The position numbers were made by a program, and so were the translations under genes. A DNA stretch of 64,000 bases, from positions 2,356,001 through 2,420,000 of the forward strand of contig CP159990.1 of assembly GCA_040702975.1 (NCBI GenBank), given 5' to 3'. The notes beneath the pieces were generated by a model that saw nothing but the letters and a program-made list of their open reading frames with translations, ran no database searches and had not been told where the DNA came from. This DNA is from Roseburia hominis. Its GTDB lineage: Bacteria; Bacillota; Clostridia; Lachnospirales; Lachnospiraceae. Below are positions 2,836-31,784 of this stretch, one piece after another (the stretch's first letter is position 1; the number at the start of each line of letters is the position of its first letter).

Positions 2836-2836
2836 T

Positions 2837-5275: not shown

Positions 5276-5846
5276 GGATAAGGAGAGAAAGGTGAAGCAG
5301 AAGAAAAGGCAGGAAGAAAGTGTATTGGAAATCTTATCCATAAATCAATATGACACGAAAAATCATTGTTATGAGATGGCCAGCCGTGAGTATGCCTATA
5401 TGGATATGCTGCGGATCCGGACAAAGGACCGCACAGGCATGGATCAGGAGGATATCACATTCGATAACATCAGTTGGCAGCGTTTCTATCTGATGTATAC
5501 GGAAGATATCAAGATTATTGCTCTGAACTTTCCAGTAGATACAAAGGTGCAGAGAGAATACTACAGTAGAAGAATTGCAAAGACGAAGAACCCGGTCTAT
5601 CAGAAATGGTTAAACAAAGAACTCGCGATTTACAACAATATCAGTGTATATAAGACAAACCGGGAATTCTTCCTCATGATCTTCGCAGAATCAATTAAAC
5701 AATTGAATGAAAATCTCGCAGTGATCGATCAGACATTAGGAATCGGTACACAGGGAAATGTAGATTATCTTTCCCAGAATGAAAAAGATATATTGCTGCG
5801 TATCCTGAATAACAAATGTACGATGACACGGAGGAATAAAGAATGA
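5262..5846 (+). CDS. VirB4 N-terminal-domain-like protein (separate gene)
   Basis: 194 residues, very basic at the N-terminus. The body (DNISWQRFYLMYTEDIKIIALNF, with FPVDTKVQREYY and a late QLNENLAVIDQTLG) resembles the N-terminal domain of VirB4/TraE ATPases, which normally starts with a SIxQYD...Y.D.L.I element (here ILSINQYDTK and YAYMDMLRIRTKD). The stop overlaps the start of the P-loop ATPase gene by four bases (ATGA). The simplest reading is that a single VirB4 has been split into two co-translated polypeptides. There is no frameshift to repair: the overlap has its own start codon and both frames are intact. Confidence 0.6.
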   Translation: MRTGKDKERKVKQKKRQEESVLEILSINQYDTKNHCYEMASREYAYMDMLRIRTKDRTGMDQEDITFDNISWQRFYLMYTEDIKIIALNFPVDTKVQREYYSRRIAKTKNPVYQKWLNKELAIYNNISVYKTNREFFLMIFAESIKQLNENLAVIDQTLGIGTQGNVDYLSQNEKDILLRILNNKCTMTRRNKE

Positions 5847-7750
5847 AGCAGAAAAAAGAAGAACAGGTCTCGGCAACAAAAGAAAAAGATATGTTGCTGC
5901 TTGAAAGGATTCAGCCGGCAGGGGGAGTGACATTTAAAAATGACAGGTATATAACGACCGGGACAGGCTACGAAGCCTGTTTGACAGTGATAGATTTTCC
6001 GTCGTCTCTTCAGGATTATTGGCTGCAGAAATTGACAAAGATTGATGATGTTGTAACGACGATTGATGTATCTACAGAAGATCCGGATATTACGGTGGCA
6101 AATATCAACCGGTCTATGAAAGAGCAGAATCAGCGTGCACGTACAAGGGATTATGAAGAATGGAAGTCAGCAGAACAGAGAAAACAGGAATTAGATATGC
6201 ATTTCAATGAACTGACTCTTTATGAACAGGTGCTTAAGATCGTGCAGCCAAGGATCTTTATTCCGGCAGCGTCAAAGGAAAAAACAGATTTAAAGGCTGG
6301 AGAAGTACAGAGAAACCTTCATGCAGCCGGATATGAAACAGCAGTATTTTTAGGGGAAGGAAAAAGGGAATGGAAGTCGGTATACCAGTCTTACAAGGAA
6401 CAACAGAATTATCAGTATGCTATTTATGGCCAGCCTATGACGGCAGAGGCCTTGGCTTTTGGAAATCCTTTCTCCTTTTCGGCCCTCTATGATCCGTGCG
6501 GGATTCCGCTTGGGACGACAATGTCCGGAGGAGATGTTATGTTTGATCCGGGCCAGTCAGATGAGCAGAGGACGCATTACAATGGCGTTGTCCTCGGAAA
6601 TCCGGGTTCTGGAAAATCCACCCTTCTGAAAAAGCTGATCAAGAGCCTTGCTGTGAGAGGGCATTTCATAAGAATTTTTGATATTGTAGGAGACTACAAA
6701 GAACTGTCAAAAGAACTGGGATTCAAGGAGGTGGTGTACGGAAAAGATGGGATTATTAATATTTTACATATCTATAAGGGCGGAGAGACGGAACAGGAAA
6801 GCTATGTAAAACATGTATCAAAGTTCTCTACATTTTATAGCTGTTTAAATCCCAAAGCGTCTGCGAAGGAAATATCGATTCTGGAAGAGCAGCTTGATAT
6901 CCTGTATCAGAAAAATGGAATTAATGTTAATGCACAAGTGACAGGATATCCAGCTGAACGCTACCCAACATTAAGCGACATGGTATGCAGTGTAAAAGAA
7001 GAAATAGATAAAATGTCCGAAGGAGCAGAAAAATTAAATGAAGTAAAACGGCAGATTGTTGTGAATAATCTGCTTCTCCTTGATGATATCCGAAAGACGA
7101 TTGAAAATGCGGTGCAGATTTACGGCATCTTTTTAGATGGCAAATCCAGCATCGAAAACCTGCAAGATGAACAGGGGGTAGATTTTAATATCACTGGACT
7201 AAAAGATGTAAAAGGAAACATTTTTGATGCATGTATACAATGCCTTTTTTCGCTTACCTGGGACAATATGATCTCGAATGGAACTGTTATGAAACGCAGA
7301 TATGAAAACGGAGAAATTGAGATAGAAGATGTGGTGCGTTTTTTTACTTTTGTAGACGAATCGCATAACTGGATCAATACCTCCAAGCCATTTCTGGTGG
7401 ATGAATGCATAAGGTATTCGAAAGAGGCGAGAAAATTCTTTGGCGGGTTCTGGTATGTATTTCATAAGGCAGGTGATGTAATGACAGAATCCGGTATTGC
7501 GGAAGATGCGCAGAATAAGCTAAGATCATTGTTTGCTCTTACCCAATACAAATTTGTGTTTAAACAAGGGAATGAGGATTTGGAGATACTAAAGAAACTG
7601 TTCGGAAATATCTTTACCCTATATCAGAGTTCGAAAATACCACAGTTGGCAAAAGGGCATACGATTTTATGTATATCAGGAATGAGCAATATCATCATGC
7701 GGGTTGCGTTGACCAGAGAAGAAGAGGCGCTTTTTAAAGGCGGTGTATAA
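5843..7750 (+). CDS. virB4: VirB4/TraE-type conjugation ATPase
   Basis: 635 residues, cytoplasmic AAA-like ATPase that powers assembly of the secretion channel. Walker A LGNPGSGKST lies near residue 252-261 and Walker B FFTFVDESHNW near 504-514, followed by the KAGDVMTESG and FALTQYKFVFKQ motifs of the family. It is shorter at the N-terminus than single-chain VirB4 proteins (usually about 800 residues); the missing part matches the preceding 194-residue gene. Both catalytic motifs are intact, unlike those of the VirD4 here. Confidence 0.87.
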   Translation: MKQKKEEQVSATKEKDMLLLERIQPAGGVTFKNDRYITTGTGYEACLTVIDFPSSLQDYWLQKLTKIDDVVTTIDVSTEDPDITVANINRSMKEQNQRARTRDYEEWKSAEQRKQELDMHFNELTLYEQVLKIVQPRIFIPAASKEKTDLKAGEVQRNLHAAGYETAVFLGEGKREWKSVYQSYKEQQNYQYAIYGQPMTAEALAFGNPFSFSALYDPCGIPLGTTMSGGDVMFDPGQSDEQRTHYNGVVLGNPGSGKSTLLKKLIKSLAVRGHFIRIFDIVGDYKELSKELGFKEVVYGKDGIINILHIYKGGETEQESYVKHVSKFSTFYSCLNPKASAKEISILEEQLDILYQKNGINVNAQVTGYPAERYPTLSDMVCSVKEEIDKMSEGAEKLNEVKRQIVVNNLLLLDDIRKTIENAVQIYGIFLDGKSSIENLQDEQGVDFNITGLKDVKGNIFDACIQCLFSLTWDNMISNGTVMKRRYENGEIEIEDVVRFFTFVDESHNWINTSKPFLVDECIRYSKEARKFFGGFWYVFHKAGDVMTESGIAEDAQNKLRSLFALTQYKFVFKQGNEDLEILKKLFGNIFTLYQSSKIPQLAKGHTILCISGMSNIIMRVALTREEEALFKGGV

Positions 7751-8946: not shown

Positions 8947-9561
8947 ATGGAAAAGAATATGCCGGAAAAAGAAACTAAGAAGAAGGAAATAAAACATAAG
9001 CTGTCCCCCAAAAGTATGCTTCAGATGTTACTCCTGATATCCTTTTTAGTTTTTTTGGCCTATATAGGATATCGAACTATTGCAGAACCTTCAGCTCAGG
9101 ATCAGATGGACTATCATGCCGATGGAGAGAATAGCGGGGAGAACGAGGCAGAAAAGGGGAGCCAAACAAAAAATCAGGAAACGTCTGGCAAAAAGAATAC
9201 CTTTACCGAGGAGGGGCTGGATTATTCTTTTCAGATCATCAATATGCGTCAAGAAGCAATGGACTTGATGGGATTAGAGATAGAAGAGTTGGCGGATGCA
9301 CTGCATGAATGGACCTACTATAACGGGTATTCTATGGCGACGACAGCGACCTTCTATCCTTATCTGGAAATTGATTTCAGAAGACAGATCTATAAGATGA
9401 CGATGCGTCTTGATGATGATGTAAGAACCATTGTGAATTTGCAGTATTACAGGGATAAGAAAAGTTTGGTTCTGAATGCAGCGGGAGCTGGCGGCGATGC
9501 AGCTTTAGAAAGCGACCTGGGAACAGAACAGAAAAATACGGATGGAGGGGAAACAGAATGA
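8947..9561 (+). CDS. Single-pass membrane protein of the transfer operon, unknown function
   Basis: About 204 residues. A highly charged cytoplasmic N-terminus (KETKKKEIKHK) precedes one membrane helix (MLLLISFLVFLAYIGYRTI) and an extracytoplasmic, acidic linker rich in Glu/Asn, then a compact domain with a conserved-looking LHEWTYYNGYSMATTATFYP segment. The layout resembles a VirB8-like or accessory subunit with an outside domain, but no family motif is recognised. The start is uncertain: ATG 8947 follows AGGAG, ATG 8962 is possible, and an upstream ATG at 8830 overlaps the stop of the hydrolase gene. Overlaps the next gene by four bases. Confidence 0.65.
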   Translation: MEKNMPEKETKKKEIKHKLSPKSMLQMLLLISFLVFLAYIGYRTIAEPSAQDQMDYHADGENSGENEAEKGSQTKNQETSGKKNTFTEEGLDYSFQIINMRQEAMDLMGLEIEELADALHEWTYYNGYSMATTATFYPYLEIDFRRQIYKMTMRLDDDVRTIVNLQYYRDKKSLVLNAAGAGGDAALESDLGTEQKNTDGGETE

Positions 9562-18754: not shown

Positions 18755-18991
18755 ATGAGTGAAAGAGAAAGGGCCATGATGCTGTTAGAGCAGATCGATG
18801 ATAAAAAAATGATTTTTGTTGTTAATATATTAGAAAACATTGCAGAGCTTGCGGAAGAGGACGATGGCCAGATGCAGCGGGAGATCGACGAGGCGATTAC
18901 TAGATTTGAGAGAGAAAAAAATAATGATGAGTGTATTTTGCTGGAAGCAAGGACAGTGTTAGCAGATTTGAGGAGGGAATACCTTGGATAA
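18755..18991 (+). CDS. Antitoxin of a RelE/ParE-type module
   Basis: 78 residues, acidic (ELAEEDDGQMQREIDEAITRF), with a helical N-terminus (RERAMMLLEQIDDKKMIFVV). AGAGGAG precedes ATG 18755. It overlaps the toxin gene by eight bases, the usual arrangement. The N-terminus does not show a clear Phd or RHH motif, so the antitoxin class is left open. Confidence 0.7.
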   Translation: MSERERAMMLLEQIDDKKMIFVVNILENIAELAEEDDGQMQREIDEAITRFEREKNNDECILLEARTVLADLRREYLG

Positions 18992-19286
18992 ATATTGCGT
19001 TATGATTCCAACGGAAGTGAAGGGAATGATAAGGGGTATATATGCTGATATCTGCGATAGGTCTCTTGATAATACGGTTGCAGAGAAGGTGATCGGCGCT
19101 ATAGAAAAGGCAATACTGTCATTGGAGTATATGCCGTATCGTGGGACAGAATTAAATAAAGGTGAGCATAAAGGGAAAAAGTACCGGAGATTAGTGGTTA
19201 AGAAGCATATCATAGTATATAGAGTCTTCGAGGAAACAAAACAAGTGATAATCGTGTTCGTTAAGAGCGAGAAGATGAATATATAA
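18984..19286 (+). CDS. RelE/ParE-family toxin
   Basis: 100 residues from a TTG start (18984) with GAGGAGGGA upstream. The pattern IPTEVKGMIRGIYADICDR, LEYMPYRGTELNKGEHKGKKYRRLVVKKHIIVYRVFEETKQVIIVFV matches the ParE/RelE fold (two helices then a beta-sheet, with conserved Arg and a Tyr-Arg-Val strand). These toxins cleave mRNA in the ribosome or inhibit gyrase; which applies cannot be told here. Together with the antitoxin it probably stabilises the element. Confidence 0.82.
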   Translation: MDKYCVMIPTEVKGMIRGIYADICDRSLDNTVAEKVIGAIEKAILSLEYMPYRGTELNKGEHKGKKYRRLVVKKHIIVYRVFEETKQVIIVFVKSEKMNI

Positions 19287-19287
19287 A

Positions 19288-19320
19288 CAGGAAAGGGGAC
19301 TGCGTAAGTCCCTTTTCCTG
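19288..19320 (+). terminator. Terminator-like hairpin after the toxin gene
   Basis: A 14-bp stem (CAGGAAAGGGGACT paired with AAGTCCCTTTTCCTG, one G-T pair) starts two bases after the toxin stop. It lacks a T-run after the stem and directly adjoins the GTGACAGAAATGTCAC palindrome at 19320. Confidence 0.6.
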
Positions 19321-19335
19321 TGACAGAAATGTCAC
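19320..19335. promoter_or_regulatory. Isolated copy of the GTGACAGAAATGTCAC palindrome
   Basis: Exact match to the 16-bp unit repeated at 21722-22030. It lies between the toxin-antitoxin module and the promoter of the DUF5688 gene. Confidence 0.8.
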
Positions 19336-19501
19336 GCGCAATGGAAGACTATAGAAACTGCTCAACTTCGCTCCCTGCATTTTCCTGAAAGCCGGTGCTT
19401 TCTCCACTCTCTGCGCGGTGGATCCGCCTGAAAAAAAATTTCTTTGTCTCATTTTGAAGGACTCAACAGAAAATGAGAAAAATTGCAGTATATTATTGAG
19501 C

Positions 19502-19566
19502 CCCAATAACAAAAAAACCGAGATGTGTACATACCCGCTATTTTATAGTATAATTACACTATAAAA
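19502..19566 (+). promoter_or_regulatory. Duplicated promoter-operator upstream of the DUF5688 gene
   Basis: CCCAATAACAAAAAAACCG (19502-19520) is identical to 14983-15001; 21 bases on, 19541-19566 is a 26-bp palindrome with one mismatch (TATAGTATAATTACACTATA core). Same layout and spacing as at 14983-15047. Confidence 0.7.
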
Positions 19567-19584
19567 AGAAAGGAGTACAAAGAT

Positions 19585-20415
19585 ATGAAGTACGAAGATT
19601 TTATTGAAAGAATGTTGCAGGAAGTTAAAAAAAGAGTAGAAAGTGATGTGAGCATTACCTTGCACACAGCTACAAAAAACAACGGCGCGATTAGAAAGGG
19701 ATTTGTTTTTGAAAAACACAAGAATCATACAGCGCCTATTATTTATCTCGATGAGTTTTATGAATCTTATCAGCATGGAAGGGAGGTTGAAGAACTTGCC
19801 GGAATAATGTGTATGCTTTATAAGAAAGCAATTTATGAAATAAAACCGGATTTTGAACGAGTCATAGATTACGAAGAGATGAAAGATAGAATTGTATATC
19901 AGCTTATTAATGCTGAAAAGAACAAAGACTTATTAGCAGAAATTCCCTACAAAAAATTTCATGACTTAGCGATTGTATTCTATCTTTTGCTTGAAAAGTC
20001 TGGTGATGAGACCGCGACGATGTTGATTAAAGATGAACTCCTACAGCGTTGGGGAGTGTCGGAACAGGAAGTGTATGAGAATGCGGTTCACAATACTCCG
20101 GTGCTCTTCCCGATGGAGATAAATCCGCTGACTGATTCTATGTATGTTTTAACAAATGATATCATTCATACAGGCGCTTCAGTCATATTGTATGATGATA
20201 CACTCAAGAGGGCGGCGGATGTCATCAAAACGAATTTCTATCTTATTCCAAGTAGTATTCATGAATGGATATTGGTTCCAGATGACGGAGTGATGACCCG
20301 ATCTCATTTGGAGGGTATGGTAGATGAGGTTAATGCAGACATGATTCCGGACACAGAAATATTAGGTGATTGCGTTTACTACTATTCTATCAAAGAGGGA
20401 AGGTTGATTGTATAG
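19585..20415 (+). CDS. DUF5688 family protein
   Basis: 276 residues; GAAAGGAG precedes ATG 19585. The sequence fits the DUF5688 family, abundant in Lachnospiraceae: a charged N-terminus (YEDFIERMLQEVKKRVES), IIYLDEFYESYQHGREVEE, then NTPVLFPMEINPLTDSMYVL, MYVLTNDIIHTGASVILYDD and FYLIPSSIHEWILVPDDG. The domain has no proven function that I know of. Expression is likely controlled from the palindromic promoter at 19502-19566. Confidence 0.75.
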   Translation: MKYEDFIERMLQEVKKRVESDVSITLHTATKNNGAIRKGFVFEKHKNHTAPIIYLDEFYESYQHGREVEELAGIMCMLYKKAIYEIKPDFERVIDYEEMKDRIVYQLINAEKNKDLLAEIPYKKFHDLAIVFYLLLEKSGDETATMLIKDELLQRWGVSEQEVYENAVHNTPVLFPMEINPLTDSMYVLTNDIIHTGASVILYDDTLKRAADVIKTNFYLIPSSIHEWILVPDDGVMTRSHLEGMVDEVNADMIPDTEILGDCVYYYSIKEGRLIV

Positions 20416-20421
20416 GACAGG

Positions 20422-20449
20422 ATGGAAGAGGGTATATCCCCTCTTCCAT
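20422..20449 (+). terminator. Perfect hairpin between DUF5688 gene and small peptide
   Basis: ATGGAAGAGGG, loop TATAT, then CCCCTCTTCCAT: an 11-bp stem six bases after the DUF5688 stop. Without a T-run it may act as a 3' end or as a translation-modulating hairpin for the peptide that starts 14 bases later. Confidence 0.5.
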
Positions 20450-20462
20450 GATAGGGGGATAT

Positions 20463-20579
20463 ATGAAGAAAGGAATTATTGAATTTATAATTATGTTGCT
20501 TATACTTATTATCTTGGTATTCATTTTTAGACCAATGATTACTAACTGGGTAACTCGTATTTTGAGTAAAATAATATAA
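20463..20579 (+). CDS. 38-residue membrane peptide
   Basis: ATG 20463 is preceded by AGGGGG. The peptide is one long hydrophobic helix (IIEFIIMLLILIILVFIF) flanked by Lys at the N-terminus and a basic, aromatic C-terminus (NWVTRILSKII). This is the shape of small membrane toxins and membrane-protein regulators, but no antisense RNA gene is evident. Coding status is plausible from the ribosome binding site and composition. Confidence 0.5.
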   Translation: MKKGIIEFIIMLLILIILVFIFRPMITNWVTRILSKII

Positions 20580-20630
20580 ACCAGTTTCTGATTTGAAATT
20601 AACCCATAAAATATATGTTAGCAAATTTGC

Positions 20631-20667
20631 AAAGGAGAGGAGACTTTAAAAAGGTCTCCTCTCTTTT
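20631..20667 (+). terminator. Rho-independent terminator
   Basis: AAAGGAGAGGAGAC, loop TTTAAAAA, then GGTCTCCTCTC followed by TTTT. Ends the DUF5688 and small-peptide unit. Confidence 0.75.
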
Positions 20668-20770
20668 ACGAATATATTTAAGAGAAAATGGAGTATCAGA
20701 TAGGTATCTGATGTTTCCCAATCAAAGAGAAAATAAAGATAGAATTACATAAGAGTAGAAGAGCACAAGC

Positions 20771-20818
20771 GAAATCTGTCCACCGCAAGCGGTGGGGTTG
20801 GCAGTGCCAACCGATTTC
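20771..20818. other. Three-stem junction element, possible oriT or structured RNA
   Basis: Outer stem GAAATC (20771-20776) with GATTTC (20813-20818); inside, two adjacent perfect inverted repeats, CCACCGC-AA-GCGGTGG (20780-20795) and GGTTGGCA-G-TGCCAACC (20796-20812). The second repeat is followed at once by GATTTCCTGCGG, which resembles the TCCTG-C nick region of MobP-type origins of transfer. Position upstream of relaxosome genes supports oriT, but a non-coding RNA or replication structure is equally compatible. Confidence 0.5.
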
Positions 20819-20978
20819 CTGCGGATTGGCAGGTGTTTCCTAAACTTTTGATTTGTCCCTTTTTTTAGGACCTAATATATCGAATATATATCTAAATATG
20901 TCAAATTTATAGTATATATTGCATTGGAAAATGTGCTGGTTTATAATGACTATGGGGAAGGGAAGTATACAATTCTGG

Positions 20979-20996
20979 CGTGACAGAAATGTCACG
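20979..20996. promoter_or_regulatory. Copy of the GTGACAGAAATGTCAC palindrome upstream of relaxosome genes
   Basis: CGTGACAGAAATGTCACG, exact match to the array unit, 34 bases before the first candidate relaxosome gene. Confidence 0.8.
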
Positions 20997-21030
20997 CGAG
21001 GAAAACAGGTGTTGGGAAAGGACTGAACAG

Positions 21031-21312
21031 GTGGAAATAAGAGTAAGAAATGTAGAACCAGTAGTTATCAGAACATTAGATGAGATGGCAAGGGAAAATG
21101 GGTTCGTAAGCGGTACGGGAAAACCAAAAAGAGAAGAGTTCCTGCGATGGCATTTCAGGCAGATGACGTTGATGTCAGAGGCAGATGAGATTGAGAACAA
21201 ATATTACAGCTTGTTCCGGCTGATGGACCGGAACCAGGAGGAGCGGCATAAGCAGATTCTGTATATGCTTCAGGAGCTGGAGAGGAGGCTGGAAAGTGAA
21301 AAAGATATTTAA
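21031..21312 (+). CDS. Candidate relaxosome accessory protein (RHH-like), first gene
   Basis: 93 residues from GTG 21031, chosen because GGGAAAGGA lies eight bases upstream; a longer frame begins inside the palindrome at 20980 and has no ribosome binding site. The N-terminus (VEIRVRNVEPVVIRTLDEMA) has the strand-helix pattern of ribbon-helix-helix DNA-binding proteins, followed by GKPKREEFLRWHF and a coiled-coil C-terminus (MLQELERRLESEK). Such proteins (MobC and relatives) help the relaxase find oriT. It overlaps the next gene by 17 bases. Confidence 0.65.
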   Translation: MEIRVRNVEPVVIRTLDEMARENGFVSGTGKPKREEFLRWHFRQMTLMSEADEIENKYYSLFRLMDRNQEERHKQILYMLQELERRLESEKDI

Positions 21313-21703
21313 CCTTCCTGAGCATGATATCGCAATCATACAGAGGGTAAAGCAGGAGAAAGGTTATCATTCGGAAGTACAGGCATTGGTGCATATACTG
21401 GAAACCTATCAGGATGACCGGGAAAAAGAAAAGTTAGAGAGGGATATATATGCACAAGTAAATAAGGAGCTAAGAGAAGTATTTTCTTCGCTTGTTATAG
21501 GGAATAGGCAGATTGAGAAAAATACAAATGCGTTAGTCGATTATATTAATTCATATATGATTTTAAAACCAGAAAAAAGTTTGAAGTGTATTCCGGCTTC
21601 GCTTACCAAATCTGAGTTCATAAAAAAGTCGGAAGAAGTACATAGAAGCAGGATTGCAGAACGCAGCAGAAAGAGAAAATATCTTGCTTCTAAGAGACGT
21701 TAA
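21296..21703 (+). CDS. Candidate relaxosome accessory protein, second gene
   Basis: 135 residues from GTG 21296, overlapping the previous gene and preceded by GGAGAGGAGG. The N-terminus (IFNLPEHDIAIIQRVKQEKG, then SEVQALVHILETY) again looks RHH-like; the middle is a coiled coil and the C-terminus is extremely basic (RSRIAERSRKRKYLASKRR), suited to DNA contact. It is the last gene before the palindrome array and the relaxase. Confidence 0.65.
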   Translation: MKKIFNLPEHDIAIIQRVKQEKGYHSEVQALVHILETYQDDREKEKLERDIYAQVNKELREVFSSLVIGNRQIEKNTNALVDYINSYMILKPEKSLKCIPASLTKSEFIKKSEEVHRSRIAERSRKRKYLASKRR

Positions 21704-21721
21704 TCCAGATTATGGGAAAGG

Positions 21722-22066
21722 CGTGACAGAAATGTCACGTGGTGTGGTTGGAAAAGACGTGACAGAAATGTCACGTGGTGGGGCGGAAAAGACGTGACAG
21801 AAATGTCACGTGGTGCGGGCGGAAAAGGCGTGACAGAAATGTCACGTGGTGTGGTTGGAAAAGACGTGACAGAAATGTCACGTGATGTAAGGCGGAAAAG
21901 GCCGTGACAGAAATGTCACGTGATGCAGGGCGGAAAAGGCGTGACAGAAATGTCACGTGGTGCGGGCGGAAAAGGCGTGACAGAAATGTCACGTGATGCG
22001 AGTCGGAAGAGGTGTGACAGAAATGTCACGCGATGCGAGTTGGGAAAGACGTGACAAAATTTTACG
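21722..22066. repeat. Array of nine perfect GTGACAGAAATGTCAC palindromes plus one degenerate copy
   Basis: Perfect 16-bp palindromic units with a GAAA centre begin at 21723, 21759, 21794, 21830, 21866, 21904, 21941, 21977 and 22014, about 36 bases apart; a degenerate copy lies at 22050-22066. Most extend to CGTGACA/TGTCACG and several to ACGTGACA/TGTCACGT. The intervening sequences are themselves similar (GGCGGAAAAGGC type, GTGGTG). All copies have the same orientation of the GAAA centre. It fills the space between the accessory genes and the relaxase, whose ATG lies 14 bases after the last copy. It looks like an iteron, centromere or operator array. Confidence 0.92.
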
Positions 22067-22079
22067 TGATGGAGGATAT

Positions 22080-24788
22080 ATGGGAAACACACCGGGAGTT
22101 GTTGTGAGAAATAAATTTGTCGCTCCTACGGGAACGAAAGGATTTGGTAATTATCTGTGGTATAAAGACCGTGCAGAAGCTAAAAGAGAAAGCGTATTAA
22201 AAAAGCAGGAACAATTTGAAGAGTATATGGAGTCCTATATGGGAAATCCTGAAAAATCGACGGGGTTATTTACGGCAAAGCGGGACAGCCTGTCAAAAGC
22301 AGAAATGAAAAAATGGCAGGGGATATTTGAAAAAGCGCAGGCGAATGGCTCTTTGTTATGGCAGCCGATTATCAGTTTTGATAATTCTTTTTTGGAAGAG
22401 AATGGCATGTACCGTTCCTCAGACCACTGGCTGGATGAGATACATATGCGTGAATATGTCCGCAATGGAGTGAAACGGATGCTGCATAATGAGAATTTAG
22501 ATCATGCAGTGTGGGTCGGCTCATTTCATTATAATACAGATAATATTCATGTACATTTGGCTATAGTAGAGCCGATGCCTACCCGAAGGAAAAAACTGTA
22601 TGAACGTGATGGGAAAATGCAGGAAGAAATCGTTGGAAAGTTTAAACCATCATCGATTAAGAAATGCCGGAGTTATATCACAAATTCCATACTTGGGGAA
22701 AAGAAGATGAATATTCAGATTAACGACTTGATTCGAAAATCCATCGTGGCAAAGAAAAAGGAGACGATTCTTCATACAGATGTAATGTTTCAGCATGAGT
22801 TTCTGACTATTTATGACCAGCTGCCGAAGAACAAGAGCTACTGGAATTATAATAATTCGCATATGCGCGCGTTAAAGCCGTTAATTGATGACCTGAGCCT
22901 GCGGTTTATCCAGAAGTACCAATTAAAAGAATTTTTGGAACTTAAAGAACTTATACGGGAACAGAATGACGTTTACCATAAGCTGTATGGGAAAAGTAAT
23001 AGTAATGCAGATTATTTGTTTCATAAGACGGAAGATTTATATGCCCGGCTTGGAAATGCTATTTTGAAAGAGATGAAGGCATATGATAAGGAATTACAAG
23101 AGGAGAGTTTACTAAAAAAGATACCGGAAGAAATTCAGTATGGTGATATGCCGGAAATACAGACTATATCTGATGATGTATTGGAAGAGTATGGAAGCAG
23201 CATTGAAGATATCATAGATTACCCGGATGAAGATACATATTTGGAATGGACGAAAGAATATAAAGCGGCTAGAAAATTTTTGTATGGGACGAAAGAAGAA
23301 GCGCCTCAGCTGGATCGGGCTTTTGTAGAAATGTCTTTAGAGGCAGAACGCGGGAATGTGCTGGCGATGTATGATTTGGGTGATATGTTTTATCATGGAC
23401 GCTGGACAGAGATGAATGAGGAAAAGGCGTCTCTTTATTATGAACAATCCTTTCGTGGTTTAATGGAATTGGATAAGAACGGTGTAAAGAGTGAGAAGAA
23501 AGAATTACTTGAAAATTATGTCTCCTATCGGATTGGCAGAATGTATCAGAGCGGAAAAGGAGTGAAACAGGATTACGGGCAGGCATTTTCTTATTATGAA
23601 AAAAGCAATTCAAAATATGCGAGGTATTCACAGGGACTTTTGTGGCGTGATGGCTGTGGTGTGGAAAAGAACCTACATGCAGCATTTGAAATGTTTGGAC
23701 AAGCAGCTAAAGATTCTATGCCGTATGCGGATTATGAACTTGGAAAGATGTATGAGAAGGGAGTAGGAACAGGGAAGGATATTGAGAAGGCCGGAGAACA
23801 TTACAAAAAGGCACTTTCAGGATTTGTGAAAATATTGGAAGAACGGCCGGACGATAAACTCTATTATAGGGTTGGGGCTATGTATGAAAAAGGGCAGGGG
23901 AGTGAGCGGAATTTGCCGGAAGCGGTCCGTTGCTATGAAAAGGCGGCTTACTTTGGAAATGTTTATGCAAATGTGGCATTAGGAAGAATCTATGCAGAAA
24001 GCGGTGAAATTGATAAAGTGAAATTGGCGGTCCGGTATCTTGAAAGCGCAAGTGAACACAACCAAGTGGAGGCACAATATGCATTAGGGAAGTTGTACTT
24101 AAGAGAACTCCCGGGAATACAAGATTATGAAAAGGCAGAACATTATCTGTCTCTTTCTGCAAAGCAGGGAAATCCGTATGCACAGTACATGTTGGGAAAA
24201 ATGTATTTGAAAGTACCGGAAATGCTAGACTACAGGAAAGCCGAACAATACTTGAAACAGTCGGCGGCGAAAGGGTTTGAATATGCAGACTACCAACTTG
24301 GCAGGCTGTACTCCTATAAGCAGTCTGATTTATATAATCCGGAGAAAGCGGAAAGTTATTTGAGAAGATTAGCTGAAAATGGAAATGATATGAGCCGCTT
24401 TGCATTAGGACAGTTATATCGTGATAAAGACAGTCCGTTATATAATCGCAGCAAAGCGATGGAATGTTTTAGGCCGCTTGCAGAGAGCGGTAACGAATAT
24501 GCACAGCTACAACTGGGAAGTTTGTATCTCCAGGGCGGCCAGTCAAGAAAAGAGCTTCGGATGGCCGAATATTGGTTCAAACAGGCAAAGAGCCTGGGAA
24601 ATGAATATGCAGATAATTTTTTGAAAAGTTTAAAACAGAAAAGCAATATGCAGTTAAAAGGACATGAAGGTGTAAAGCTGTCAAGAGCAATTTCCCGGCT
24701 ACAGGGAGAGGTAAGAAGAGAGAGCAGGCGTGCGCTCCAGGAATACGAATTTGAACAATCTATGGAACAGGAGATTCGAGTCCGTTGA
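22080..24788 (+). CDS. MobL/MobP-type relaxase fused to Sel1 repeats
   Basis: 902 residues from ATG 22080 (GGAGG five bases upstream); a longer frame runs back into the repeat array and is rejected. Residues 1 to about 330 are a MobL-like relaxase: MGNTPGVVVRNKFV, KAEMKKWQGIFEKA, HAVWVGSFHYNTDNIHVHLAI with the metal-binding HVH at about 157-159. The catalytic Tyr is not assigned. About residues 428-840 hold eleven Sel1-type repeats (for example AQYMLGKMYLK, ADYELGKMYEKGVGTGKDIEKA), forming a superhelical protein-binding scaffold. The C-terminus is basic and Gln/Glu-rich. It should nick oriT and be piloted through the VirD4 channel encoded at the left. Confidence 0.82.
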   Translation: MGNTPGVVVRNKFVAPTGTKGFGNYLWYKDRAEAKRESVLKKQEQFEEYMESYMGNPEKSTGLFTAKRDSLSKAEMKKWQGIFEKAQANGSLLWQPIISFDNSFLEENGMYRSSDHWLDEIHMREYVRNGVKRMLHNENLDHAVWVGSFHYNTDNIHVHLAIVEPMPTRRKKLYERDGKMQEEIVGKFKPSSIKKCRSYITNSILGEKKMNIQINDLIRKSIVAKKKETILHTDVMFQHEFLTIYDQLPKNKSYWNYNNSHMRALKPLIDDLSLRFIQKYQLKEFLELKELIREQNDVYHKLYGKSNSNADYLFHKTEDLYARLGNAILKEMKAYDKELQEESLLKKIPEEIQYGDMPEIQTISDDVLEEYGSSIEDIIDYPDEDTYLEWTKEYKAARKFLYGTKEEAPQLDRAFVEMSLEAERGNVLAMYDLGDMFYHGRWTEMNEEKASLYYEQSFRGLMELDKNGVKSEKKELLENYVSYRIGRMYQSGKGVKQDYGQAFSYYEKSNSKYARYSQGLLWRDGCGVEKNLHAAFEMFGQAAKDSMPYADYELGKMYEKGVGTGKDIEKAGEHYKKALSGFVKILEERPDDKLYYRVGAMYEKGQGSERNLPEAVRCYEKAAYFGNVYANVALGRIYAESGEIDKVKLAVRYLESASEHNQVEAQYALGKLYLRELPGIQDYEKAEHYLSLSAKQGNPYAQYMLGKMYLKVPEMLDYRKAEQYLKQSAAKGFEYADYQLGRLYSYKQSDLYNPEKAESYLRRLAENGNDMSRFALGQLYRDKDSPLYNRSKAMECFRPLAESGNEYAQLQLGSLYLQGGQSRKELRMAEYWFKQAKSLGNEYADNFLKSLKQKSNMQLKGHEGVKLSRAISRLQGEVRRESRRALQEYEFEQSMEQEIRVR

Positions 24789-24821
24789 TTTTGCGGACCA
24801 TTGAGGCGAGAAAGGTGATCG

Positions 24822-24839
24822 CGTGACAGAAATGTCACG
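24822..24839. promoter_or_regulatory. Palindrome copy upstream of parAB, forward orientation
   Basis: CGTGACAGAAATGTCACG, identical to the array unit; 79 bases before the parA -35 box. Confidence 0.85.
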
Positions 24840-24857
24840 CAAAGAGGCTGTAAAGGA

Positions 24858-24875
24858 CGTGACATTTCTGTCACG
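24858..24875. promoter_or_regulatory. Palindrome copy upstream of parAB, reverse orientation
   Basis: CGTGACATTTCTGTCACG is the reverse complement of the array unit, the only copy with the opposite centre. Its start is 36 bases from that of the neighbouring copy, the same period as in the main array. Confidence 0.85.
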
Positions 24876-24917
24876 GGGCAAAGCCAAGATGTGCTGCAAA
24901 ATTTTACTTCAAAACTA

Positions 24918-24946
24918 TTGACATCATAATTGTATAACACTATAAT
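24918..24946 (+). promoter_or_regulatory. Consensus promoter of parAB
   Basis: TTGACA (24918-24923), exactly 17 bases, TATAAT (24941-24946): a perfect sigma-A promoter. The palindrome pair lies 43-96 bases upstream of the -35 box. Confidence 0.88.
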
Positions 24947-24981
24947 ATAAACACAATTTAAAAATGAAGAAGGGGATATAA

Positions 24982-25854
24982 ATGAGGAGAATGAAAACAA
25001 TAGCAATTCTCAATAACAAAGGAGGAGTCGGAAAATCAGTGACTGCCACAACTCTTTCGGCGATTATGGGAGTTGAGTTTGATAAGAAGGTTCTGCTTGT
25101 AGATGATGATCCACAGGCAAATTCAAGTAAGATTATGGGGTTTACGGGGAGAAGAGCAAAAAACTATTCTTTGCGCGAAAAGATAGAGCAAAAGGTGGCT
25201 CTCTGTGAAAATACATTGGAGGACGTCCTGCTTGACCCGGAAAAAGATATCCACGATTGTATTGTACATACACGGTTTGAACAGGTAGATTTGCTGCCCG
25301 CTTACCTTACGCTCTCAGAGGCGGAAAACAAGCTGCTTAGTGACGTTAGCCTTCCGCAACAGTTCAGACTGAAAATGCAGTTGGAGAAAGTAAAAGGTGA
25401 ATACGATTATTGTATTATAGACTGTGGGCCGGGCGTCTCTTTGCTGAATATAAATGCCCTGGTTGCTGCAGATGGCGTCCTGATTCCCAGTAAGAGTGAT
25501 GAGAGTTCCAGGGACGGGATAGCAAATATCATGCACCTTATTAAGACTGTACAGAGTTATAATCTTAATTTGAAACTCTCCGGATGCTTTTTAGTGCAAT
25601 ATGATAAAAGGAAGCGTATCTGTCAGGAAGCGTGGGCAGACTGTCAGGAAGCATTGGGAGATAAATTCCTTCCCTGGACAATACGGCAGAATACTTGTGC
25701 AGAGCAGGCACCGGGAAAAGTCAAAACTTTATATGAACTTGATAAGAAGAGTGATTCAGTTTATAATTATATTTGGATTGCGCGATATTTAATGGAACGT
25801 AATGGTAAAAAAGTGCTGAAAGAATACATGGAGGAAATGCAGCATGAAATTTAA
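24982..25854 (+). CDS. parA: ParA-type partition ATPase
   Basis: 290 residues. The deviant Walker A NKGGVGKSVTATTL (residues 10-23), VLLVDDDPQANSS (Walker A'), and YDYCIIDCGPGVSLLNINAL are all intact, so this is an active ParA/Soj-type ATPase. AAGGGGA precedes ATG 24982; ATG 24991 is a less likely alternative. It overlaps parB by 11 bases. It should move or position the element DNA with ParB. No N-terminal helix-turn-helix is present, so it is of the short (type Ib or Soj-like) class and any autoregulation would come from another protein. Confidence 0.9.
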   Translation: MRRMKTIAILNNKGGVGKSVTATTLSAIMGVEFDKKVLLVDDDPQANSSKIMGFTGRRAKNYSLREKIEQKVALCENTLEDVLLDPEKDIHDCIVHTRFEQVDLLPAYLTLSEAENKLLSDVSLPQQFRLKMQLEKVKGEYDYCIIDCGPGVSLLNINALVAADGVLIPSKSDESSRDGIANIMHLIKTVQSYNLNLKLSGCFLVQYDKRKRICQEAWADCQEALGDKFLPWTIRQNTCAEQAPGKVKTLYELDKKSDSVYNYIWIARYLMERNGKKVLKEYMEEMQHEI

Positions 25855-26827
25855 ACAGGGCATGATGAGAAAAACAGAGACCCCGGAAGTAGAGATCGGA
25901 AACGGACTGCTCAGTGGGATATCCCAGAAATATAAAAATGTTGATAATCTGACTATGGATATCGTATATGTAACAGAAGAAAAAATCGCATATAATCCGC
26001 TGAACCGTGATGTCAGTAAAAATGATATTGAAGAGATGGCGCAGTTGATCGCTATGAATCATGGATTAGAACAACCGTTGGTATTAAGAGATTATACAGA
26101 AAAGGATGGTGAGGAAGATTTCGAATATATACTTTTGACAGGCGAGAGACGGCTGCGTGCGATTCGCCTCAATAAAGAGAGAGGAATCATGACAGATTAT
26201 CAGATTCCCTGCTATATCAAAGAACTTGATGATATACCACTTCCGCTGGATGATGACCTAAAGGAAGAGTTTGCTATTGCAGTATCGAATAAGTATCGGG
26301 AGAAGACAGATGGCGATTTATATTTGGAGTCTCAGCGCTGGCGTAAAATATACAAGGCATTAAAGGCTGCTGGAGAGAGTTATATTGATTACACTGATCA
26401 GGAAGGGAATGTGATAGAACAGAAAAATATTTCCGGGAAAAGAGTGCGGGAATTGGTCGCAGCAGAAATGGGAATCAGTGTTGGGACAGAGCAGAAATTG
26501 GAGGAGGTAGAACGGAAGGGAGCGGAGGAAGTAAAGGCCGCTCTTCTGGCTGGGAAAGCCACTTTGGAAACGGCACATGCTCTATCCAAACTGGAGCCGG
26601 AAGAACAGAGGAAGATTGTAGAACAGGCGGAAGATGTCATTGAAAAAAAAGATGTCCAGAAGCATGTTGAGAGGAAGGAAAAAGAAATTGCGCTAACGCG
26701 CGAAGCCTGGAATGAGGATATTCGGCCGATTGAGGAAGCCTTGGATTGTGGAAAGGTCATGTTAAAAGAAAGTAAGATGAAGCAATATGAAAAAGCGATA
26801 CAAACATTAAAAAAATTGATTCAATAG
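25844..26827 (+). CDS. parB: ParB/Noc-like partition protein
   Basis: 327 residues. The ParB N-terminal domain is visible: IAYNPLNRDVSKNDIEEMAQ, GLEQPLVLRDY, YILLTGERRLRAIRLNKERG (residues about 48-120, with the GERRxRA box for CTP). A helical DNA-binding domain follows (GKRVRELVAAEMGISVGTEQ, LLAGKATLETAHALSKL), then a coiled-coil C-terminus rich in Lys and Glu. It is the obvious candidate to bind the nearby palindromes. Confidence 0.88.
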   Translation: MKFKQGMMRKTETPEVEIGNGLLSGISQKYKNVDNLTMDIVYVTEEKIAYNPLNRDVSKNDIEEMAQLIAMNHGLEQPLVLRDYTEKDGEEDFEYILLTGERRLRAIRLNKERGIMTDYQIPCYIKELDDIPLPLDDDLKEEFAIAVSNKYREKTDGDLYLESQRWRKIYKALKAAGESYIDYTDQEGNVIEQKNISGKRVRELVAAEMGISVGTEQKLEEVERKGAEEVKAALLAGKATLETAHALSKLEPEEQRKIVEQAEDVIEKKDVQKHVERKEKEIALTREAWNEDIRPIEEALDCGKVMLKESKMKQYEKAIQTLKKLIQ

Positions 26828-26846: not shown

Positions 26847-27191
26847 ATGAAGAATAAAATTTGTTATTATACAACTTATGGATTAAAAATAGCAGCTCTC
26901 AAACATGCGGGTGAAATGGGGATTGAGAATTCGGCATTTGCGAATCTGGCAATCAATAAATTCCTTAAAGGCGATCAGGAAATCAATCCGGAATTTTTGA
27001 TTAAAAAAAGGACAGATCCGGATTATGTGGCCAGAGACCAAATGGATCAGATTATTATCCCGGAGGAAACGAAAGCAAAGCTGCAGGAAGTCGCTAAAAG
27101 GTATAAATGTTCTATGGCGATCATCGTTTTCCAGGCCATGTATGATATGTGTTTTGAGATTGAGATCAATTCAGGAAGGGTTCAGTTATAG
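26847..27191 (+). CDS. Small DNA-binding-like protein, third gene of the par operon
   Basis: 114 residues, GGAAAGGGG upstream, 19 bases after parB. Two similar halves (GLKIAALKHAGEMGIENSAF and TKAKLQEVAKRYKCSMAIIV) each resemble an RHH-type helix pair, and the second follows DQIIIPEE, a likely beta strand. It may be a regulator of the par operon or a third partition component. No known family assigned. Confidence 0.6.
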   Translation: MKNKICYYTTYGLKIAALKHAGEMGIENSAFANLAINKFLKGDQEINPEFLIKKRTDPDYVARDQMDQIIIPEETKAKLQEVAKRYKCSMAIIVFQAMYDMCFEIEINSGRVQL

Positions 27192-27203
27192 GGAGGTGTG
27201 ACT

Positions 27204-28013
27204 ATGAAATGGAGAGCAAGATTTTTGAGATGCACGATGGTAGTTCTGTTAATGATGGCGCTTATGTTAGGGTGTGGTGCACCTGGAGCAGAAGAAAACT
27301 CGGTTGCAGCGTCAAACAAAGTCGAAGATGAAAAAGATGTGGTCAGTGTGAAGCCACAGAAACAGATAAGCAAATCGGACAACGGTGAAAACATGGGAGC
27401 AGAAGAACCAGAGGGCGAAAAGCCGACAGGCGAGAAAGATAAAACAGTATCAACAACAAAATCAGATAAGGCGGATAAAGCGCAGACAGCAAGTGTGGAT
27501 AAGCCGGAGCCGGGTAGTAAAAAGACCGTTACCAAGGATACGGATAACAGCGAAACGAAGAAACCTGATAAGAGTAGCAGTAATAATAACACTGGGACAA
27601 ATAATAAACCTTCCTCTAAGCCATCTCAACCATCCAAGCCTTCTAAACCGGAGCATCAGCATAGCTGGGAGGTAAATTATAAGACCGTCCATCATGATGC
27701 ACAGTATGAAGAACGATGGGTACAGGATTCAGCAGCATGGGATGAGTATGTGCCGATTTACGAATATGTTGAAAAAAATGTATGCAATGTATGTGGTCAA
27801 TATATCGAAGGAAGTCCGGCAGATCATGCAAAGAAACATGCCCTTGCGGGCGAAGGTGGGGGACATCATTCTGAATGGATTCAAGTACAGAAAGGGACCG
27901 AAAAGATTCATCATGAAGCTACAGGGCATTACGAGAAAATACAAACACAAAAAGCATATGATGAAAAAGTGCAGGACGGCTATGTGTGTCCTGGATGTGG
28001 AGCCAGGAAATAG
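27204..28013 (+). CDS. Lipoprotein with C-terminal CxxC zinc-ribbon-like domain, copy 1
   Basis: 269 residues. ATG 27204 follows GGGAGGTG. Lipoprotein signal RARFLRCTMVVLLMMALMLG with the lipobox Cys in LGCG. A long low-complexity Lys/Asp/Ser/Pro linker (about residues 35-150) tethers a C-terminal domain with His-rich YKTVHHDAQYEERWVQ, CNVCGQYI and CPGCGARK, two CxxC pairs that could bind one zinc or form disulfides. Strongly similar to the next gene. Not recognised; surface-exposed, perhaps for contact, exclusion or adhesion. Confidence 0.72.
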   Translation: MKWRARFLRCTMVVLLMMALMLGCGAPGAEENSVAASNKVEDEKDVVSVKPQKQISKSDNGENMGAEEPEGEKPTGEKDKTVSTTKSDKADKAQTASVDKPEPGSKKTVTKDTDNSETKKPDKSSSNNNTGTNNKPSSKPSQPSKPSKPEHQHSWEVNYKTVHHDAQYEERWVQDSAAWDEYVPIYEYVEKNVCNVCGQYIEGSPADHAKKHALAGEGGGHHSEWIQVQKGTEKIHHEATGHYEKIQTQKAYDEKVQDGYVCPGCGARK

Positions 28014-28046
28014 GTTGTCAGTGTGGGAATAATGGGATGTGTAACT

Positions 28047-28874
28047 ATGAAATGGAGAACAAGGTTTTTGAGATGCGCGATGGCCGTTCTATTAACGGTA
28101 GCGCTTGTGTTAGGGTGTGGTGCACCTGGAGCAGAAGAAAACTCGGTTGCAGCGTCAAACAAAGTCGAAGATGAAAAAGATGTGGTTGGTGTGATGCCAC
28201 AGAAGCAGATAAGCAAATCGGACAGTGGTGAAAACATGGGAGTAGAAACTGTGGAGGAAGCAGAAGAACCAGAGGGAGAAAAGTCGACAGGCGAGAAAGA
28301 TAAAACAGTATCAACGACCAAGTCAGATATGGCGGATAAAGCGCAGACAGTAAGTGTGGATAAGCCGGAGTCCGGTAATAAAAAAACCGTTACCAAGGAT
28401 ACGGATAACAGCAAAACGAAGAAACCTGATAAGAGTAGCAGTAATAATAACACTGGGACAAATAATAAACCTTCCTCTAAGCCATCTCAACCATCCAAGC
28501 CTTCTAAACCGGAGCATCAGCATAGCTGGGAGGTAAATTATAAGACCGTCCATCATGATGCACAGTATGAAGAACGATGGGTACAGGATTCGGTAGCATG
28601 GGATGAGTATGTGCCGATTTATGAAACGGTTTATAAGAATGTTTGTAATCAGTGCGGGGAAGATATAACAGGCTGCGAATCCGCGCATAATAAAGCGCAT
28701 GCATTAGAAGGTGGAAATGGTGGATGGCATTCTGAATGGGTTCAAGTGCAGACGGGAACAGAAAAGATTCATCATGAAGCTACTGGACATTACGAGAAAA
28801 TACAAACACAAAAAGCATATGATGAGAAAGAGCAGGATGGTTATGTGTGCTCTGGCTGTGGAGCCAAGAAATAG
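28047..28874 (+). CDS. Lipoprotein with C-terminal CxxC domain, copy 2
   Basis: 275 residues, a tandem duplicate of the preceding lipoprotein. Signal, linker and tail align almost throughout (GCGAPGAEENSVAASNKVED is identical in both). The differences concentrate in a short insert (VETVEEAEE) and in the region around the first CxxC: CNVCGQYIEGSPADHAKKHA in copy 1 versus CNQCGEDITGCESAHNKAHA here. Duplication with a diverged metal-site segment suggests recent copying followed by change in the binding part. Confidence 0.72.
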   Translation: MKWRTRFLRCAMAVLLTVALVLGCGAPGAEENSVAASNKVEDEKDVVGVMPQKQISKSDSGENMGVETVEEAEEPEGEKSTGEKDKTVSTTKSDMADKAQTVSVDKPESGNKKTVTKDTDNSKTKKPDKSSSNNNTGTNNKPSSKPSQPSKPSKPEHQHSWEVNYKTVHHDAQYEERWVQDSVAWDEYVPIYETVYKNVCNQCGEDITGCESAHNKAHALEGGNGGWHSEWVQVQTGTEKIHHEATGHYEKIQTQKAYDEKEQDGYVCSGCGAKK

Positions 28875-31442: not shown

Positions 31443-31784
31443 GGATTTTAAAGATAACCTTGAAAAAATTATTTGACAAGTTTTTAGATTCATCATATAA
31501 TTTAGTCAAGGTGTTGGAAATAGTTTTGCAGAACTAATTTCCAGCAATGACATTTACTCTGACCAGTAAATATCCTATTTGTAGTATAGAGTGAATTCGG
31601 GAAAAAGTCAATTCCTAAATTTATAAAATATGAAAGATGATTGGTTGGGAGTAGATGTAGAAAACATTTACTTCTTTTTTATTATGGTCTACTATTGAAA
31701 TTTAATATCATATCCGGGAAAAGTCAATTTTTTTTCTTCTATTTCCCTACAAACAATTTACCCCGTCCATTTTGTTTGACAGGG

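Follow-up and report, generated by a model that had tools for sequence, protein, structure and literature searches.

The palindromes that recur around the transfer and partition genes of a Roseburia hominis element are probably parS sites of the element's own ParB protein, and the array in front of the relaxase gene would be a clustered centromere comparable to sopC of the F plasmid. We assign this reading a probability of about 0.8, on the strength of sequence comparison. The window analysed here is a stretch of 64,000 nucleotides of contig CP159990.1, to which all plain coordinates refer.

Perfect copies of the palindrome in the array start at 21723, 21759, 21794, 21830, 21866, 21904, 21941, 21977 and 22014, and a degenerate tenth copy occupies 22051-22066 (Table 1). 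Tandem Repeats Finder places the array at 21717-22068, with a period of 36 and 9.7 copies, and the stretches between the palindromes are alike too, i.e. the entire 36-bp unit is repeated. An earlier note on this DNA had described nine perfect copies and a degenerate one at a period of about 36 bases, units alike beyond the palindromes, lone copies elsewhere and a pair at the parAB promoter, and all of this is borne out. Its further statement that the copies share one orientation throughout is correct for the array, but one member of the pair is inverted. When up to three mismatches are allowed, the window contains 14 matches to the 16-mer against 0.40 expected, and none of 100 shuffles reaches 14. 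The exact 16-mer occurs 13 times in the genome (4,257,935 bases, one contig), always inside the window, and it was not found in 60 other related genomes, 7 of which belong to the same genus.

The array was said to be neither coding nor CRISPR, and this view is supported. We place the relaxase start at ATG 22080, after a GGAGGA sequence, and not at the GTG at 21993 of the open reading frame listing, which falls within the array; the array is therefore non-coding. A CRISPR was set aside because the whole 36-bp unit is repeated and unique spacers are missing between the palindromes. The canonical chromosomal parS is TGTTTCACGTGAAACA, and in a comparison by eye the array junctions match only its TCACGTGA core, in some units. 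Outside the array, sites precede the DUF5688, aux1-like and parA genes, so that together with the relaxase gene four genes have the palindrome upstream, a dispersed arrangement as known for KorB. The parA promoter-like sequence is the sole 12/12 match in the region, in which 22 promoter-like matches stand against 17.1 in shuffles.

Table 1. Positions of the palindromes, the candidate oriT and the neighbouring genes in the window.
Feature	Position	Strand	Evidence or remark
Lone palindrome, upstream of DUF5688 gene	19320..19335	+	pattern scan of the window
Candidate oriT, GCACAAGCGAAATCTG with inverted repeats, outside the array	20762..20835	+	similar stretch in three relatives
Lone palindrome, upstream of the first small (aux1-like) gene	20980..20995	+	pattern scan of the window
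RHH1, in the place of pLS20 Aux1	21031..21312	+	matches in G701, G680, G290 and G338
RHH2, in the place of pLS20 Aux2	21296..21703	+	matches in G338, G680 and G701; in G290 by place only
Array, nine perfect and one degenerate 16-bp palindrome GTGACAGAAATGTCAC	21723..22066	+	proposed parS cluster; start-to-start spacing 35-38 bp
MobP2/MOBL relaxase with C-terminal Sel1 repeats	22080..24788	+	MobL 1.3e-86, Sel1 9.3e-40, MobP2 5.7e-95
Inverted palindrome pair, upstream of the parA promoter-like sequence	24823..24874	24823-24838 +, 24859-24874 -	pattern scan
parA promoter-like sequence TTGACA-17-TATAAT	24918..24946	+	12/12 consensus match only
ParA, Walker ATPase	24982..25854	+	AAA_31 2.2e-46 over residues 4-197
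ParB-like protein, GERRLRA box and HTH, proposed reader of all palindromes	25844..26827	+	ParB_N 1.4e-6; Noc/ParB/KorB matches
Small RHH-like protein downstream of parB	26847..27191	+	RHH nature read from the sequence

The genes around the array belong to a mobile element with conjugation functions. A homologue of pLS20_p028 is encoded at 2822-4960 (above cutoff), a VirD4-type protein at 448-2832 (just below cutoff) and a VirB4-like ATPase at 5843-7747 (below cutoff). The element also encodes a DDE transposase, present once in the genome, for which the ISLre2 model scores above and the Mbov_0401 model below cutoff. Inverted terminal-like sequences TTGTAGGGAAATA at genome position 2347345 and at window 31740-31765 may bound an element of roughly 40 kb next to the RNase Y promoter. 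The second of these lies directly before the promoter of the RNase Y gene, with a further CGGGGTA outside it (by eye), and a possible element end was counted by eye at about 19 bp before the promoter-like -35. A target duplication was looked for at the putative ends and none was seen, so the ends are provisional. At 27198-28874, two similar genes in tandem encode putative lipoproteins whose C-termini are rich in His and Cys; the genes have relatives in G680 (50%) and G701 (34%).

RHH1 and RHH2 match no Pfam or NCBIfam family. RHH1 is regarded as a putative RHH protein on account of its place, its sequence and the CopG annotation of the gene at the same place in L185. In pLS20, oriT occupies the gap upstream of aux1 and contains the binding sites of both Aux1 and Aux2 (PMC5313138, PMC5675868). 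At the equivalent place, upstream of the aux1-like gene, the motif GCAYAAGNGAAAWCTG with inverted repeats occurs in the window, G338, G701 and G680. The array as oriT of the MOBL relaxosome was accordingly rejected, since the conserved motif sits in the candidate oriT instead. The Lactococcus plasmid locus L184 has the pattern as well, at a different position and on the opposite strand; it was not found in L171, L182, L183 and L185.

For comparison, 397 genomes of the bacterial family were screened with the relaxase, and 392 genomes of the order and 391 of the class with its MobL domain. The nearest relaxase relatives found are those of four elements (G338, G290, G680 and G701) with 36-45% MobL identity, and all four carry palindromes of the same build, GTGnnn-N4/5-nnnCAC, with other letters, in arrays or scattered. 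These are GTGTCC-AAAT-GGACAC in G680 (20 copies on one 4.4-kb contig), GTGTCC-N5-GGACAC in G290 (18 copies on one 15-kb contig), GTGCTA-N4-TAGCAC in G701 (9 copies in 20 kb) and GTGGAA-N4-TTCCAC in G338 (3 copies in 16 kb), while the GTGACA motif of the window is absent from the fetched loci of these four genomes. The largest palindrome family in five Markov resamples had 1 or 2 members (loci L167, L171, L177, L178). Genome-wide forward counts were 31 for G290 (30 of them on three contigs), 29 for G680 (on five contigs), 12 for G701 and 3 for G338 (each on one contig), and the backward-pattern controls gave 3, 0, 1 and 0, respectively. Among six genomes compared, G290 and G680 alone have GTGTCC palindromes and G701 alone has GTGCTA palindromes. 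GTGGAA palindromes are found once or twice in three of the other genomes too, which makes the G338 set the weakest. The relatives thus share the build of the 16-mer but not its letters.

The position of the sites recurs as well. All five elements have sites at the junction of aux2 and the relaxase gene: 9+1 copies in the window, 13 in G680, and a single one in G701, in G338 and in G290; that of G290 lies inside the end of the aux2 open reading frame. A palindrome pair between the relaxase gene and parA is shared by the window and G701; G701 and G680 have in common a site at the coupling-protein gene, at its start or immediately upstream of it. In G338 the DUF5688 gene is flanked by sites on either side; the window has one upstream of it, and in G701 and G680 they lie downstream. 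The open reading frame picker puts many sites inside open reading frames, mostly in G290 and G680, which in part are spurious frames through arrays; some G290 sites are truly inside long genes. By this comparison the array looks like the expanded form of a recurrent single site, and since relatives carry between 1 and 13 junction copies, the functional unit is more likely to be the single site. That the array accompanies the relaxase therefore needs qualification: the site does, but its copy number is not constant. Such variability comes near to what the earlier note had named as speaking against it, an array that varies next to relaxase loci that are identical in other respects, but the relaxases under comparison here share only 36-45% identity.

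Beyond these elements the palindromes were not recovered. No palindrome family was found beside relaxases of 24-30% identity, and the distant relative G254 and the class-level relatives G994 and G980 (28-29%, no family of at least three) were set aside, as were G375 and G069, which matched only C-terminal Sel1-type parts and have no palindrome family. Palindrome sets can be small, as the weak 3-copy set of G338 shows. Four plasmid loci with MobP2 relaxases (L182-L185) have no palindrome family of at least three perfect copies, and a looser scan of them found only scattered 3-member sets, in two loci. The relaxase had no match in 19 other genomes of the genus of G701. A scan for close-paired GTGACA-N4-TGTCAC found 51 stretches in species genomes and 72 in viral contigs, none of them a homologous array, with records close to the window's genome possibly outside the scan; L048 has two GAAA-loop copies and L030 one. 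ParB searches of plasmids gave 3 and 8 records with weak matches, three being Paraclostridium plasmids. Neither the G701 ParB in phage records nor the window ParB or MobL in viral contigs found a match. Three further observations concern the fetched loci. Two palindromes in G701 (L178:10576-10659) are followed by T-runs and resemble a terminator, which is not so in the window. Near coupling-protein genes, L168, L169 and L170 encode proteins that resemble the relaxase in its C-terminal Sel1 part (34-38% across long stretches); the close MobL domain is missing there. G338 has a second, divergent ParB with a ParA near an ssb-like gene (L167:10442-12442), besides the ParB adjacent to its relaxase.

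The parA and parB genes of the window overlap, and the Walker ATPase ParA beside ParB corresponds to a type I ParABS system. ParB combines the CTPase motif GERRxR, as GERRLRA at residue 100, with an HTH. Its structural model has a mean pLDDT of 79.8, with helices at residues 201-209 and 213-225, and its fold matches Noc, ParB and KorB (best E 3.5e-8), with modest Foldseek TM-scores of 0.24-0.39 by query length among matches with E up to 0.001. The ParB profile A1 matches 25 of the 397 family genomes, and 24 loci from 23 of these were analysed, with the window's and G338's left out and two loci coming from G345. Within 600 bp of parB, 15 of 137 palindromes in the 24 loci have an outer GTG, an enrichment over the rest of the loci with an odds ratio of 7.6 and a Fisher p of 5e-7, which is only a guide because related loci share ancestry. 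GTG palindromes are located within 600 bp of parB in 13 of the 24 loci, in nine of them between -65 and +70 bp relative to where the parB match ends, and the remaining 11 loci have none within the 600 bp.

The recognition helix of ParB was compared with the sites in 23 loci, with a 5-bp spacer and up to one mismatch in the arms. All ten loci with Lys..Gln in the helix have a GTGTCA site and none a GTGTCC site, and all six loci with Arg have GTGTCC and none GTGTCA; the helix residues thus match the sixth base of the palindrome arm in 16 of the 16 loci that fall in either class. The other seven loci have other helix residues, two with a GTGTCA-like site (1 mismatch) and five with neither. By our own calculation, a locus of 19.5 kb should contain about 0.04 matches of either type by chance. 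L212, which was left out of this comparison, has a Lys..Gln helix, and a single perfect GTGTCA-N4-TGACAC lies 410 bp beyond its parB match; this locus was added last, after the criterion had been relaxed post hoc to admit a 4-bp spacer. Five loci (L215, L216, L221, L230 and L236) had no assigned GTG site when the rule was formed and all fit afterwards, which is not a blind test because the matches in L216, L221 and L230 were already visible earlier. Arg and GTGTCC occur together on separate branches of the ParB tree, namely in G680, which belongs to the window's clade, in G290, whose ParB is on another branch than that of the window, and in L228/L234. These results suggest that ParB proteins of this kind and their sites change together. 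G701, with its GTGCTA palindromes, has a Lys..Gln helix. The window ParB (Thr..Lys, with GTGACA) is outside both helix classes and G338 (Gln..Arg, with GTGGAA) disobeys the rule, so the link between ParB and GTGACA is one by family only. The Thr..Lys pair of the window recurs in three further ParBs, P0002-P0004, with 57-75% identity. Taken together, ParB is the best-supported candidate reader of the palindromes. The proposal in the earlier note that the sites are centromere- or operator-like and probably read by one protein, with ParB among the candidates, can to this extent be upheld.

Some of the parB loci have palindromes of other kinds. In the prophage-like locus L222, beside phage-type genes, three parS-like palindromes lie inside parB (9200-9312) and encode a repeated SDSDT-like peptide. 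Three ATACTT-type palindromes with about 40-bp spacing are found near parA in L215 (6039-6135) and L216 (12101-12197); they were at first regarded as parS and were then left unassigned, as both loci also have GTGTCC-like sites (1 mismatch).

Other proteins of the element could read the palindromes. RHH2, or RHH1, might use them as operators or relaxosome sites in the manner of pLS20 Aux2/Aux1 and thereby control relaxase expression and transfer. In favour of this are the location of the array between aux2 and the relaxase gene, the presence of the two small genes in all five elements (RHH2 of G290 by place only) and the RHH2 beta-strand, which changes with the sites about as much as the ParB helix does; G680 and G290 share T-V-R and GTGTCC. 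We nevertheless consider this explanation unlikely: pLS20 Aux1 and Aux2 bind within oriT, whereas the candidate oriT here is separate from the array, and the plasmid loci L182-L185 have genes in the place of aux1 and aux2 but no family of at least three perfect palindromes. Moreover, GTG palindromes with a matching ParB helix occur in other parB loci in which tblastn with the window proteins detected no relaxase, RHH1 or RHH2, where small divergent proteins could be missed. Even less credence is due to the view that the small RHH-like protein encoded at 26847 is a centromere-binding protein of the omega/ParG type and reads the palindromes, and that the ParB-like protein has its role elsewhere. 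Relatives of the 26847 protein are encoded downstream of parB in G338, G680, G012 and, two genes further on, in G701, but it was not found next to parB in G290, despite 30 sites on three contigs, and has no match in the other parB loci except G012.

Two further explanations are both highly improbable. As RNA, CGUGACA-GAAA-UGUCACG would presumably make a good hairpin with a 7-bp stem and a GAAA loop, which could act from the relaxase leader on translation or stability, and the array copies share one strand. The loops of the relatives (AAAT, ATTAT, GTTTC, CAAA, TTTA, TTTT and others) are, however, not GNRA, one window copy is inverted, and no Rfam family reaches its gathering score in 18900-25100. 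Because the loop letters differ between elements and both orientations occur, the unit is a DNA dyad and not an RNA hairpin. Replication iterons of the excised element would fit the tandem spacing and the position beside the relaxase gene, but the unit is a dyad and the sites of G290 and G701 are scattered over tens of kilobases.

If the palindromes are indeed parS sites of ParB, a single ancestral site between aux2 and the relaxase gene was probably duplicated in tandem to give the array. ParB dimers would load at every palindrome GTGACA-N4-TGTCAC, presumably as CTP clamps, and the clustered sites of the array could strongly nucleate ParB for the partition of the excised circle by ParA. The scattered copies before the DUF5688 gene, aux1 and parA would be further loading sites from which, in the manner of KorB, transfer genes may be controlled; clamps that slide away from the array and the single sites might influence transcription of the aux, relaxase and par genes, up or down. 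This putative regulation is suggested by the position of the sites. The ParA domain begins at residue 4 and lacks an N-terminal HTH extension, and therefore ParB would be the natural regulator of the par promoter. A wider picture, which we regard as possible but short of probable, is that in a family of Gram-positive conjugative elements one ParB is both centromere protein and transfer switch, its clamps loading beside oriT and the relaxase gene from expandable parS clusters and at transfer operons from single sites. The ParB helix would drift in step with the sites, and every element would thereby retain an address of its own and escape incompatibility with related elements.

The GTGnnn palindromes are thus a proposed parS type for a ParB family in genomes of the window's bacterial family, which is found in conjugative elements and in at least one prophage-like locus. 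The simple helix-to-site rule is testable and can be used to predict sites. The natural series of 1 to 13 copies at one place allows clustered and single ParB sites beside a relaxase gene to be compared, and bears on how inheritance and conjugation are balanced.

The earlier note knew of no description of this system. Its kind is known from F sopC, RK2 KorB/O_B and NAH7 ParB/parS, but in the literature searched, as far as its texts were available, we found no description of the site family, of the apparent helix-site code or of an expandable cluster at a relaxase gene, and five motif strings did not occur there. Overall, the earlier interpretation is partly supported. ParA/ParB genes have been reported on other ICEs, e.g. 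Tn4371-like elements (PMC4489591). TnGBS enters 15-16 bp before the -35 (PMC4701971), and TnGBS-type ICEs resemble the window element in their DDE transposase and in the distance of the possible end from a promoter-like -35, but the conjugation genes of the window element are pLS20-like and its ends provisional. With pLS20 the element shares the relaxase family and the order oriT-aux1-aux2-relaxase (PMC5675868, PMC5313138); the difference is that aux2 and the relaxase gene of pLS20 are translationally coupled, whereas 376 bp holding the array lie between them in the window.

Each repeat of F sopC holds a 16-bp palindrome. The twelve 43-bp repeats of sopC (PMC9178275) and the proposed parS cluster of the window are alike as tandem repeats of about 40 bp in a type I partition system, but the window array is located before the relaxase gene and not after sopAB, and it is accompanied by dispersed sites. 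RK2 KorB represses from sites located 4-10 bp or 45 to >1000 bp upstream of its target promoters (PMC11790492). It is a ParB-fold protein with dispersed sites, as proposed for the window ParB, and KorB structures are among the fold matches of the window ParB; different from RK2, the window system resides on a Gram-positive element and has sites clustered in an array. In NAH7, ParB activates the transfer genes, and the inverted repeats that it binds are situated close to these and to the par genes (PMC12421886). The parS_NAH site is 18 bp long, differs in sequence and is present in six dispersed copies on a proteobacterial plasmid, but its placement near par and transfer genes is that of the palindromes in the window.
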